From: Saccoglossus kowalevskii
Lineage: Eukaryota > Hemichordata > Enteropneusta > Harrimaniidae
Direction: 5' to 3'
Assembly: GCF_000003605.2 (NCBI RefSeq)
Contig: NW_003116950.1
Span: 367,448-405,251 of the forward strand
DNA length: 37,804 bases
Positions 4,377-31,316 of this stretch are shown here, one piece after another (position 1 is the first letter of the stretch; each line of letters starts with the position of its first letter). Below the pieces are notes generated by a model that was not told where the DNA came from, did no database searches, and saw nothing but the letters and a program-made list of their open reading frames with translations. The translations under genes and the position numbers were made by a program.

Positions 4377-4990
4377 GAGATATGGATTCAGAAGCTGATG
4401 CTTGATTGTGATTTGTTAACATTAAAATGTATCTGATCGTCAAACGAGTACTTGTCCATACTGAGGGATGTCGCTCTGGAACAGCATTACTTAGAAGAAT
4501 GTCGGCCATTTTGAATATCTATGATATGATGTATAATGAATATATAAAATTTGAACATAATCAGTCAAAGTATGCCAGAACCGCATTCACTACAAAAAAC
4601 TGGCCGCCAGTCAGCCATTTTGAATCTGATTTGAAAAACAAAATAAAGTGCACCAGGGACCCATACTGTTTAATGTATGTACCGAGTTTGAACAAAATCC
4701 ATCCATAAATAACCGAGATTCAGTTCTGGAACTCCAGAAATGCTTGATTTTGGTGATTTTTTTGCACAAAAATTGCTGCGATTCGACCGTCTTGATTGTG
4801 AAAGAAATTGATGTGCAGATGTCAAATTGTATGCATGATATATGTATGAAGTTTGAATGTAATCAGTCAAGGCATGTCTAAGATACAGGTTCGGACGCAC
4901 ACACATACGCACACACGCACGCACAGGGGTCATGCGTCCGAACGGGGACTAATAAAATACCCTAATAACAACGGGAGGTATGACCCGTTT
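4377..4990 (+). repeat. decayed dispersed repeat with internal monomers
   Basis: Related phrases recur inside the stretch. A TTTGAACATAATCAGTCAA block near 4,550 recurs, diverged, near 4,850 (TTTGAATGTAATCAGTCAA), followed in both by AAGTATGCC or AGGCATGTC. Another block, GAGATATGGATTCAGAAGC near 4,378, resembles GAGATTCAGTTCTGGAAC near 4,713. GCCATTTTGAAT occurs near 4,505 and 4,614. The spacing suggests two to three diverged monomers of about 300 bp. The overlapping 77-93-codon frames are within chance expectation and are not called as genes. Confidence 0.45.
4889..4943. repeat. CA-rich tract inside an 11-bp perfect inverted repeat
   Basis: GTTCGGACGCA at 4889-4899 is the exact reverse complement of TGCGTCCGAAC at 4933-4943. 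The 33-base loop is an interrupted (CA/CG)n tract. The structure sits at the 3' end of the dispersed repeat above and may be its terminal hairpin. Confidence 0.75.
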
Positions 4991-7900
4991 AAGAACAAAA
5001 ATATCGATTTCCAGAAGAGCGTCTATATAGGAATACATACATGCAAAGGAGTGGACGTTAAACGGGCTATTCAACACTCGAGTAGAACGCATGGATTCTG
5101 CACGGGGTAAGAACACACATACTAGTAATACTATTCGACATTATTGGCGCCAATTTTTCCAAACTATAATAATTTTAGACTGCAGTAAATCATTCAATTC
5201 TTCAGAATAAAGTTGATTAGATAAGATCGAATTGTTTTTCGTGCAGACAATTTATAGCAATTATTAAACACTCTGAGAAAATAAGCAGGTTTTTGTACGG
5301 AATCAATAATTCGGAGCTGTAGACCTCGTGTAAATAAAACTCGTTTGACATCAGTAGTTGAACCACACTACGTCATACATTTTAATTAACGAAGTTCCAC
5401 AATGCGAAGGTATATTAAATTTAATAATTTACTGGAGGGCATATTAGATTTCTTATCAAATAAACTGTGCGAAAACGAGCAGATGTGAGTTCATATGTGT
5501 GTGTCACATCACCAGGCCACTGGGAATGAACTGAAATGTCAACTGTCATGCATGCTTGAATGTGGCTTCATTGCAATGAGCGGCCGTGGTAAGACTCGAG
5601 AAAATGTTTTGAGCTAAGTACTAGTAACCAACGCACTGTAAAACATGACTCAGACCACTAAAAAAATAGAGGAAATACGCGGACTTTCTTTCGGTAGGAT
5701 GCGTGCCGCACTAACGCGTCTGTAACGTAATAACGTGATATCTGTTGTTATTTTACACGATAATACGACGGTTTTTCCATGCGAGGTCTTTTTTGATGAA
5801 TTTGTCGATTGTGACGACGACTATTGTGAATGGGGCGCTACTGAAGACATTACAAAAACACACACGGCAGATAAATGCTTTAAGTACTTTCGGGAGACTA
5901 GTGTCTAAGGTCTGCCGTGGCACGCATCCCACAAACGTAGTCCCAATTCACACTTTGAACACTACGCTTTTCCAGTATGTACTTTTAAGCGCTTAAGGTT
6001 GTGTTTTTGTTTGACTGTGTGTCTCAAAGCTGATTGCCGATTCAGCGGTACTCCTGAGAGTACTGTCTGCCCAGCCTCCCAAACACGCTGTACTGAGTTG
6101 CAAGTATTAGGTTTGCGAGACATTTTTGAACCGAAAACAAATCACTAGGAGAGGCAACAACTCGAAACAGCCCGGAAATAATTTTACTAAATAACATAAT
6201 AATAGTTATAATAATAATAATAGTTGGATATTCGTTATCTAAAACTGCAAACGTTTTCCAACTAACAACACAGAATTAATTTTATGGATGAATAAACTCA
6301 TCAATACGCTTGCGCAGTGAATTACTGGAACGTACTCGGATTCAGCATACCATAGGAGGAAGCACTCTGTTAGCTTATTGACATGAGTATATCGCTATAC
6401 ATCATTAATATTAGAATATTAACTACGAGCACGCATGTATGTGTTTGTACCGGGCATGTATCTAGTTTCTTGACCGTGCACGCATCAACTGCAAAATCAT
6501 CTTTATTCACCTCGCATCGCGTTGATGACACTAAATACTCATGGTTTTTCAAATTTGTTCGTCAGTGAAATGTTAGTACAGCAGATCACTAGCGGTATAC
6601 ACCCGTATACTTAACGTACTTGATGTGAATGTTGTGATAACGGTTAGGAAATTAGCATGCAATGTGTTTGGTAATAATAGTATACAAAACGAGTGAAACA
6701 AACTAACTAATTTAAATCTATTAATATTATACTAGCATATGATACGTGAAATGTCCCACCTGAGCGCAAATTTGAGCTTTATTGGCAGCGACAGGAGATG
6801 AAAAATCGCGACTAATTGCCAGCGTTTGATATTTATGGGCGTAATTACATTCCCCATTCACACCTGCATAGACTTATTATGCAGGACGGTGTCTTTACGA
6901 GAAACTGACATAACATATAAACTCTCCGCAACTTCATTTAACTAGAAAACTCTTTGTTTTCCAAATAGTGATAGATATGAAGATGCATATAAAACGTTGC
7001 TATAACGAATTGTGCAAGGCGAATAAAATTACAATGTAATATTTGATTCAGAGTATTGTCTAATTAGGCTACTCGTGTTCCCATGCCCTTCTACCTGAAA
7101 ACTGTATTGAGCAGATTGAGCATTCTACACGTGCGTTATCACTGCATTACACTTTTGTGAAAATGTTATCACTAAATACAATTACAATGTACTGAGGATT
7201 ATATTTATATACCAAAAAATAAGTACCAACGTAATATGCGTTTTAAAGTAAATATTGTTGGACAATTGTTATTCGTCTGCGGGAGATTGTGCTACGACTA
7301 TATTATCCTTAACTTTGTTGGTGTCCTTCAAACTTGTTTCTGTACGTCAGTTATACGTACGGCTCGAAAGCGCTAATTTCGTTTGAATCACTGTAAATAT
7401 TTCAAATAATTAGCGAAGTGTTACAAAAAAAAAATGTTGATTTCCCAGTGAATGACATATACAATTGACATAATGAGTAGATGTTGTGTCGGATAAAATA
7501 TGCAAATCTAACACCAATGCTTAAATGCTTACTCTGTCAGAAAACTCATTTCATGTGTAATCCCTTTTGCAGTAGACAAAACGTGCAAGATATCCCTAAC
7601 CATTGACATCGTTATCTTGTGTAATGATGAATTAATTCGATTTAGATGTGATATACAATGGTTCCTATTATAAACTACCCAAAATAATACTCGCGGGAAT
7701 CTATGCATTCAGAGAACGTAACAATCTATTATTTCACGGTTTGTATTCAACGGTTACTGCACCCACACTAAAATGCTAAATAATCCAAATCATCAGAATA
7801 GATGAGGTTATGAGTATTTTATACATGCGAGACAATCAATATGCATGCTGTGAGTTAATCTTTCGAATGTTCCCATACTAAAAATCATGATTGATCGAGC

Positions 7901-17282: not shown

Positions 17283-17477
17283 AATATAACTATCATCTGG
17301 TATAGAAAGCACCGTGTATTATTTCTTATCTGTTGTCAACATGGTTAAATGGGTCATTTAATTATTTTGTTAACTGAATGTATATATGTATTCATATATA
17401 TTTCGTATCATCATCGCTATATGTTACTATTCTTACATAATTAATACATCTTACTACTTTTAAATACGGGTAAAATG
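17283..17477 (+). repeat. left arm of ~200-bp inverted repeat pair
   Basis: Matches the reverse complement of 20585-20786 at about 90 % in its core by eye. It includes a long exact block, TTTCGTATCATCATCGCTAT, and further runs such as CATTTAATTATTTTGTTAAC. Similarity stops sharply at the inner end after TAAAATG and fades outward around AATATAACTAT. No coding capacity. Confidence 0.85.
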
Positions 17478-20584: not shown

Positions 20585-20786
20585 CATTTTATCTGTATTT
20601 CAAGGTAGTAAGATGTATTAATTATTTAAAATAGTAACATATAGCGATGATGATACGAAATAAATATAAATACATATACACATCCAGTTAACAAAATAAT
20701 TAAATGATCCATTTAACAATGTTGACATCTGATAGGAAATAATATACGGTGCTTTCTATATCACTATATCAGATAATAGTTATATT
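20585..20786 (-). repeat. right arm of ~200-bp inverted repeat pair
   Basis: Reverse-complement partner of 17283-17477, with exact blocks around ATAGCGATGATGATACGAAA and GTTAACAAAATAATTAAATG. Two insertions of the same family in opposite directions, or long terminal inverted repeats of one element about 3.5 kb long, are both possible. In a minus-strand transcript the two arms could pair as a long hairpin. Confidence 0.85.
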
Positions 20787-28269: not shown

Positions 28270-30736
28270 AAATTACATATAAGGCATACAAATACAGGTA
28301 TAAACACTTTGTATGGACACAGTGAAATTACATATAAGGCATATCAATACAGGTATAAACACTTTGTATGGACACAGTGAAATTACATATAAGGCATACC
28401 AATACAGATATAATCACTTTGTATAAACACAGTGAAATTACATATAAGGCATATCAATACAGGTATAAACACTTTGTATGGACACAGTGAAATTACATAT
28501 AAGGCATACCAATACAGATATAATCACTTTGTATAAACACAGTGAAATTACATATAAGGCATACCAATACAGGTATAATCACTTTGTATAGACACAGTGA
28601 AATTACATATAAGTCATACCAATACAGGTATATACACTTTTTATAGAGAGGGTGAAATTACATATAAGGCATACCATTACAGGTATAAACACTTTGTATG
28701 AACACAGTGAAATGACATATAATGCATATCAATACAGGTATATACACTTTTTATAGAGAGAGTGAAATTACATATAAGGCATACCAATACAGGTATAAAC
28801 ACCTTGTATGAACACAGTGAAATGACATATAAGGCATACCAATACAGGTATAATCACTTTGTATAGACACAGTGAAATTACACATAAAACGTACCAATAC
28901 AGGTGTACTCACTTTGTATGGAACCAGTGAAATTACATACAAGGCATACCAATACAGGTATAAACACTGTGTATATGAGCCCAGAGAAATGACATATAAG
29001 GCATACTATTACAGGTATAATCACTTTGTATAGACACAGTGAAATTACATATAAGACATACAGATACAGGTATAAACACTTTGTATAGACACAGTGAAAT
29101 TACATATAAGGCATACCAATACAGGTATAATCACTTTGTATAGACACAGTGAAATTACACATAAAACGTACCAATACAGGTGTACTCACTTTGTATGGAA
29201 CCAGTGAAATTACATACAAGGCATACCAATACAGGTATAAACACTGTATGAGCCCAGAGAAATGACATATAAGGCATACTATTACAGGTATAATCACTTT
29301 GTATAGACACAGTGAAATTACATATAAGGCATACAGATACAGGTATAAACACTTTGTATGGACACAGTGAAATGACATATAAGGCATACCAATACAGGTA
29401 TAAACACTTTGTATGAACACAGTGAAATGACATATAAGGCATACCAATACAGGTATAGACACTTTGTATAGACACAGTGAAATTACATATAAGGCATACC
29501 AATACAGGTATAATCACTTTGTATAGACACAGTGAAATTACACATAAAACGTACCAATACAGGTGTACTCACTTTGTATGGAACCAGTGAAATTACATAC
29601 AAGGCATACCAATACAGATATAAACACTGTGTATGAGCCCAGAGAAATGACATATAAGGCATACTATTACAGGTATAATCACTTTGTATAGACACAGTGA
29701 AATTACATATAAGGCATACCAATACAGGTATAAACACTTTGTATGGACACAGTGAAATTACATATAAGGCATACCATTACAGGTATAATCACTTTGTATG
29801 GACACAGTGAGATTACATATAAGGCATACCATTACAGGTATAATCACTTTGTATGGACACGGTGAAATTACATATAAGGCATACCAATACAGGTATAATC
29901 ACTTTGTATAGACACAGTGAAATTACATATAAGGCATACAAATACAGGTATACCCACTTTGTATGGTCACAGTGAAATGACATATAAGGCATACCAATAC
30001 AGGTATAAACACTTTGTATAGACACAGTGAAATGACATATAAGTCATACCAATACAGGTATAGACACTTTGTATAGACACAGTTAAATTACATATAAGGC
30101 ATACCAATACAGGTATAAACACTTTGTATGGACCCAGTGAAATTACATACAAGGCATACCATTACAGGTATAAACACTTTGTATGGTCACAGTGAAATGA
30201 CATACAAGGCATACCATTACAGGTATAAACACTTTGTATGGACACAGTGAAATTACATATAAGGCATACCAATACAGGTATAATCACTTTGTAAAGACAC
30301 AATGAAATTACATATAAGGCATACAAATACAGGTATAAACACTTTGTATGGACACAGTGAAATTACATATAAGGCATACCAATACAGGTATAAACACTTT
30401 GTATGGTCACAGTGGAATTACATATAAGGCATACCATTACAGGTATAATCACTTTGTATGGACACGGTGAAATTACATATAAGGCATATCAATACAGGTA
30501 TAAACACTTTGTAAAGACACAATGAAATTACATATAAGGCATACAAATACAGGTATAAACACTTTGTATGGTCACAGTGAAATGACATATAAGGCATACC
30601 AATACAGGTATAAACACTTTGTATGCTCACAGTGGAATTACATATAAGGCATACCAATACAGGTATAAACACTTTGTATGAACACAGTGGAATGACATAT
30701 AAGTCATACCAATATAGGTATACTCACTTTGTATGG
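28270..30736. repeat. 55-bp minisatellite, about 45 units
   Basis: The unit reads AAATTACATATAAGGCATAC, CAATACAGGTATAAACACTT, TGTATGGACACAGTG (55 bp). Units differ by point changes and occasional 2-bp length changes. A distinctive trio (a CACATAAAACGTACC unit, then a GAGCCCAGAG unit, then a CATACTATTACAGG unit) recurs from about 28874, 29151 and 29534, showing higher-order duplication. The unit lacks stops in all three minus frames, which creates long but meaningless frames (up to 120 codons) rich in LVCLICNFTVSIQS-type peptides. Confidence 0.97.
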
Positions 30737-30774
30737 TGTCGCATACGACTTATTTTCCACTACCGTGTCACTGA

Positions 30775-30889
30775 GAATGTTCTAGAACCGCACTGTGTCT
30801 GGGTGGAATATTCTATATTTTTTAGAAAATGGTTGAATAGGTAATAGAACACTGTAGGAGGCAATAGAAGGTAATGGAACATTCTAGAA
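30775..30889. promoter_or_regulatory. cluster of heat-shock elements in the LTR
   Basis: GAATGTTCTAGAA at 30775-30787 and GAACATTCTAGAA at 30877-30889 each match the three-box HSF consensus GAAnnTTCnnGAA perfectly. A two-box GAATATTC is at 30806-30813. All lie 70-180 bases upstream of the LTR's TATA box, where HSF sites normally act. Binding and heat induction are inferred from the consensus, not shown. Confidence 0.6.
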
Positions 30890-30956
30890 ATTTGTAGTAA
30901 GTTCCAGACTCATTATGTATGCTGATGTAATGGTCTATTTATAGACAGTGGGGGTG

Positions 30957-30963
30957 TATATAG
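30957..30963 (+). promoter_or_regulatory. LTR TATA box (TATATAG)
   Basis: GTGTATATAGGGGAG sits mid-LTR, downstream of the heat-shock elements. Transcription would start around 30985-30995 (near CACTGAGTTCAG), marking the U3/R boundary. A TATAAATAG on the opposite strand at about 30936-30944 is an alternative. Confidence 0.5.
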
Positions 30964-31241
30964 GGGAGTTGTTCAGCACTGAGTTCAGATCGGAGATCTC
31001 GTTGAATTGTGTTGGACTTTAAGTATCTAGTTATTGGAGGTTTGGAGTTTTACCGCGTTATTGTACTTGATGTTTGCAGAGTATAATAATACCAGTACTA
31101 GTTGAAACCTCATCTGTTGGCTCCGTGTTCGTATGTTATCATCGCCGCCAGGGAAGTCTTTATGTTACTGATGCCATTTTGGTATTTGAACCATCACACC
31201 TGTACTATACCAATTACGGTAATATTACGTTGCGTGTGACA

Positions 31242-31316
31242 TATGGTCACAGTGAAATGATATATAAGGCATACCAATACAGGTATAAACACTTTGTATA
31301 GACACAGTGAAATTAA
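31242..31316. repeat. minisatellite remnant beyond the LTR
   Basis: About 1.4 units continuing in exact register from the array broken by the LTR: TATGGTCACAGTGAAATGAT through AAACACTTTGTATAGACACAGTGAAATTA. It then meets unique sequence. Confidence 0.95.

Follow-up and report, generated by a model that had tools for sequence, protein, structure and literature searches.

A solo LTR and its heat-shock elements

The window, by which we mean the whole stretch of 37,804 bases analysed, contains a 505-bp solo long terminal repeat (LTR) on the + strand (30737–31241), assigned below to a Gmr1-type Ty3/gypsy retrotransposon and delimited by its TG...CA ends (TGTCGC...GTGACA), by matches to other members of its family and by a perfect 5-bp target-site duplication (TSD), TATGG, on the left (30732–30736) and on the right (31242–31246). 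The target of the insertion was a 55-bp minisatellite, which the LTR interrupts near the right end of the array: 44.9 copies as delimited by TRF lie upstream of the LTR promoter (28270–30736), while a remainder of about 70 bp, with its right limit set by eye, lies downstream (31242–31313). The promoter is marked by a TATA box on the + strand (30957–30962; TATATA in at least 43 of 49 aligned copies), and from its position we infer that transcription would start near 30985, within a start region at the U3/R border (30980–30996, + strand) placed by TATA spacing.

Lacking any internal region, this copy is incapable of autonomous transposition. No Pfam match was found for the 10 window ORFs scanned. 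Elsewhere in the window, an inverted repeat with arms of about 200 bp that are 87% alike and separated by 3.1 kb (17283–17477 and 20585–20786) may represent either a DNA transposon or a short element present twice in opposite orientations.

The original prediction placed two three-box binding sites and one two-box site for heat-shock factor (HSF) in the LTR, and a script located all three on the + strand: the three-box heat-shock element (HSE) GAATGTTCTAGAA (HSE 1, 30775–30787), the two-box element GAATATTC (30806–30813) and the three-box element GAACATTCTAGAA (HSE 2, 30877–30889). Their ends lie 170, 144 and 68 bp, respectively, from the TATA box at 30957, in agreement with the expectation that they would be found 70–180 bases upstream of it and wholly inside the LTR. 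When all 37,804 bases were scanned by script, these two proved to be the only three-box HSEs in the window. As a null, 20,000 first-order Markov sequences were matched to the LTR in length and composition; they contained a mean of 0.0026 three-box sites per LTR, and not one contained two. Furthermore, across the window and the flanks of 20 other copies, 43 three-box sites fell inside the masked elements (11.5 kb, 22 LTRs) versus four in the 219 kb that was left unmasked. A chance origin of the HSEs was rejected on the basis of this null and of the concentration of three-box sites in family LTRs.

The family and its parent element

The genome searched comprises 572 Mb in 4830 contigs. With the window LTR as query, 596 first-look candidates were obtained, and the 40 that were scored, the window copy counted among them, show 95–100% identity; a second search, using the most diverged LTR as query, yielded 594 candidates, of which 40 were likewise scored. 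By script, the first 40 scored copies divide into 28 solitary LTRs flanked by an exact 5-bp TSD, five LTRs joined to internal sequence and seven that are neither, one of the seven (L013) having an exact duplication by eye if one changed first base is allowed. The median pairwise distance within the family is 3.2%, and the paired LTRs of single elements differ little (in L014 at 5 of the 488 positions compared, with a further 23 gap positions; in L061 by 14 mismatches in 509 aligned columns), which suggests that both insertions are fairly recent. Judged by these sequence distances, the family is young. L014 was also considered as a miniature element, a candidate dropped for the run of N inside it (50 N in the locus). 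Other copies are flanked by genes for a rhodopsin-type GPCR and an O-fucosyltransferase and by a C2H2 zinc-finger ORF, as would fit an animal host. At one locus (L018) about 1.3 kb separates a family LTR (4654–5158) from a rhodopsin-type GPCR gene that consists of a single ORF (6496–7506) and exemplifies a possible neighbour of the HSEs.

The nature of the parent can be read from copies that retain internal sequence. In L061 the 5' LTR is followed, in this order, by an integrase C-terminal piece (SH3_Tf2-1, 4.5e-5, and Integrase_p58_C, 1.1e-4, both below Pfam's cut-off), a reverse transcriptase (RVT_1, 4.8e-23), an RNase H (1e-40) and the 3' LTR. In L026 a piece of Gag shows similarity above cut-off to the SCAN family (PF02023; E 3.4e-8, 33.6 bits with a cut-off of 27), and another internal piece gives a weak match to the integrase zinc-binding domain. 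In L014 the first LTR is followed by TCTGGGGGCTCGTCCGGGA, which we take to resemble the primer-binding site for tRNA-Pro; ahead of the second LTR is a purine-rich tract, and the two LTRs together are flanked by TAATG. A SCAN-like Gag is a trait of the Gmr1 clade of Ty3/gypsy elements. This clade is further described, in the excerpted text of one source, by an integrase upstream of the reverse transcriptase (PMC6238403), and the window LTR family is like it in both respects. We consequently regard the parent as a Gmr1-type Ty3/gypsy element, an assignment based on domain order (integrase, reverse transcriptase, RNase H) and on the SCAN-like Gag.

Unlike the window LTR family, the Gmr1 clade is described in the same excerpt with no mention of an HSE (PMC6238403). 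Within the host genome, none of seven related elements (44–60% identity in RNase H, drawn from 152 matches among 150 scored candidates) has a three-box HSE in the approximately 0.8 kb after RNase H, a negative weakened by the fact that at least three of the seven (L064, L067 and L068) show no clear LTR start by eye. As none of the seven shows the sites in this stretch, the HSEs look like a property, or a gain, of the window LTR family, and with these relatives sampled such a gain might be traceable. Evenly spaced RNase H copies were also noticed on six small contigs (C3559, C4161, C1400, C3929, C819 and C1135), for instance at 561, 6383, 12196 and 17862 on C3559 and at 2494, 6939 and 11366 on C1400. 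These arrangements, as if of head-to-tail retroelements, may be concatemers, extrachromosomal circles or assembly artefacts.

Retention and genomic abundance of the sites

The original prediction was staked on the HSEs being shared by other LTRs of the family, and the comparison came out in its favour, both within the retrieved copies and across the genome. A tally of every retrieved LTR that spans both positions in one piece, with each genomic copy counted once, comprises 58 LTRs; of these, 49 have both three-box sites intact, 55 have one or both and three have neither (HSE 1 and HSE 2 being intact in 52 each). The split 5' LTR of L060, which falls outside this tally, keeps site 1 and has site 2 deleted. 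Eighteen of the 58 (including L038, which is also in the LTR list) were reached via matches to internal sequence rather than through LTR similarity, and 12 of these have both sites intact. In an alignment of 49 LTRs, which omits one duplicate row and from which a length filter removed the split 5' LTR of L060 as well as L031 and L035, 44 copies retain both three-box sites; counted singly, HSE 1 is intact in 47 copies, HSE 2 in 45 and the two-box site likewise in 45. Outside this alignment, six LTRs adjoining other internal matches have site 1 in three cases, site 2 in five and both in three. Five copies belonging to a diverged type (L036, L039, L040, L069 and L071) lack the two-box site, while both three-box sites are common to the main and the diverged type. 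A further conserved LTR block (30921–30944) contains TGATGTAAT and CTATTTATAG, which presumably resemble ATF4-type and MEF2 sites; among the 49 copies CTGATGTAA is unchanged in 46 and CTATTTATAG in 44.

Throughout the genome the strong pattern GAANNTTCTAGAA occurs 1164 times (612 forward and 552 reverse), whereas the control, the same pattern reversed, occurs 141 times (66 and 75); the three-box HSE pattern in general is GAANNTTCNNGAA, and this genome-wide count covers its TTCTAGAA form only. The exact ordered pair of LTR sites, with 70–95 bases between them, occurs 316 times (165 and 151) versus none in the control. Therefore at least 632 of the 1164 strong GAANNTTCTAGAA sites come from the window LTR family, a share that refers to these strong sites and not to all three-box HSEs. 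Among 100 GAANNTTCTAGAA places listed, 70 belong to ordered pairs of LTR sites 62–105 bp apart, and 86 carry the TG or CA linker of the family.

A proposed heat-response model and its relation to known systems

Taken together, the sequence features strongly suggest heat-driven transcription from the LTR, and an HSF-driven heat response of the family is, in our estimation, the best explanation of them and a probable one. The host genome encodes an HSF DNA-binding domain, of which one matching exon was found (E 7.2e-23). Under this model, heat or another protein-damaging stress would bring HSF trimers onto both three-box sites of U3, and the bound HSF would recruit Pol II to the LTR TATA box. 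Complete elements would then produce genomic RNA in bursts, to be reverse transcribed, with priming probably from the tRNA-Pro-like site (an assignment made from general knowledge), and inserted anew, so that the element would borrow the stress response of its host as its own trigger. For the window copy the consequence is narrower, as it could serve at most as a rightward-pointing promoter or enhancer inducible by heat. The proposal that it could also confer heat-responsive transcription on the minisatellite found no support as regards sense transcription, because the + strand LTR points away from the array: transcripts would run to the right, and nearly the whole array lies to the left.

The pattern of conservation could also arise if the HSEs were a frozen accident of the founder LTR, carried along by recent multiplication and without a transcriptional role. 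The family is young, so that shared descent alone would give high retention and must account for much of the HSE conservation; moreover, other parts of the LTR are equally or more conserved, the two HSE 13-mers standing no lower than the 11th and 29th percentile when the 13-mers of the LTR are ranked by variability and being exceeded in conservation by blocks at 30915, 31058 and 31175. Against this, the HSE core varies less than the rest of U3 in the 49 aligned LTRs (0.6% versus 2.2% changed; resampling P 0.009), a difference also seen with gaps counted (16 of 1176 core cells versus 297 of 9849; Fisher P 3e-4, with cells that are not independent). The two diverged copies tested point in opposite directions: in L040, the most diverged copy read (80% identity), none of 18 core positions is changed versus 44 of 222 elsewhere in U3 (P about 0.02, gap positions being counted singly), and in L034 two of 18 are changed versus six of 222. 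On balance, conservation of the HSEs lends function modest support. The retention of both three-box sites by the main and diverged types alike, and the improbability of two ideal sites arising by chance at promoter distance, which counts for a heat response, also speak against a frozen accident, and we consider it an unlikely account.

A role for HSF need not imply a role for heat. Transposons benefit from germline expression, and HSF could bind these sites for basal, germline or developmental transcription, a reading that we find about as improbable as the frozen accident, given that a TATA box with perfect three-box sites close by is an arrangement that fits inducible heat-shock promoters. 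It does draw some support from HSF5, which acts in male meiosis according to the excerpted text of one report (PMC11059408). Far less credible than either alternative is that the boxes serve a different factor, STAT or TEAD for instance. Although GAA and TTC half-sites are found in other motifs, the boxes of the LTR alternate with gaps of exactly two bases in runs of three, and there are two such runs. In a STAT site TTC and GAA must be separated by three or four bases, and a STAT-type spacing was rejected on that ground.

If the family is heat-responsive, as we favour, one transposon family has provided the genome with hundreds of ready-made heat-inducible promoters. We put forward, as a tentative proposal that is less likely than not, that a single Gmr1-type family captured two ideal HSEs, persists mostly as solo LTRs and supplies more than half of the strong GAANNTTCTAGAA HSEs. 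The result would be a layer of heat-inducible promoters that is specific to the lineage and dispersed over the genome.

Well-described heat-triggered LTR elements are known from plants, and ONSEN (COPIA78) of Arabidopsis, likewise an LTR retrotransposon with a heat-responsive element in its LTR, is the closest functional analogue of the window LTR family, although it belongs to another superfamily and its host to another kingdom. ONSEN is a plant copia element with the consensus nTTCnnGAAn, whereas the window family is an animal Ty3/gypsy element with two three-box sites; the heat response of ONSEN is experimental, whereas that of the window family is predicted from sequence. The original comparison with ONSEN can thus be kept for the working logic, namely HSEs in an LTR promoter and conserved across a family, but not for membership, as the parent appears to be of the Gmr1 type. 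Membership in copia was rejected because RVT_1 is the only Pfam family to which the reverse transcriptase piece has a match at E <= 0.01, and because of the SCAN-like Gag.

A second parallel concerns CpG content. In the window copy, the 203 bases from the end of HSE 1 to the start region contain one CpG (30789), with none further before 30991, where about 5.9 would be expected from base content; among the 49 copies, the interval 30790–30985 has no CpG in 35, one in 13 and two in one. The promoter of ONSEN is free of CG sites, as stated in an excerpt of PMC3907296. This likeness between the two CpG-poor promoters is suggestive only.

Helitrons insert without a target duplication, and Helitron membership was rejected for the window element, which is an LTR with a 5-bp TSD. 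The window family nevertheless resembles the Helitrons of Caenorhabditis as a transposon spreading a large share of the HSEs of its genome, for in C. elegans Helitrons carry over half of them, according to excerpted sources (PMC6927752; for Caenorhabditis see also PMC8896005). Helitrons are, however, DNA transposons, whereas the window family is an LTR element with the sites in its own promoter. TCN3 and TCN12 of Cryptococcus are LTR retrotransposons of a fungal host with putative HSEs in the LTR and with mobilisation raised at 37 C, as given in an excerpt of PMC12810828. The same excerpt states that the principle has been shown in animals, and it is therefore not new there. In a fish, LTR retrotransposons are among the thermally responsive transposable elements, in an excerpted account that mentions HSE or HSF 0 times (PMC12834978), and no animal LTR retrotransposon with HSEs was found in the literature searched by title and opening of the abstract. 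If the tentative proposal of a dispersed promoter layer is true, the window family would be an animal LTR counterpart of both ONSEN and the Caenorhabditis Helitrons.
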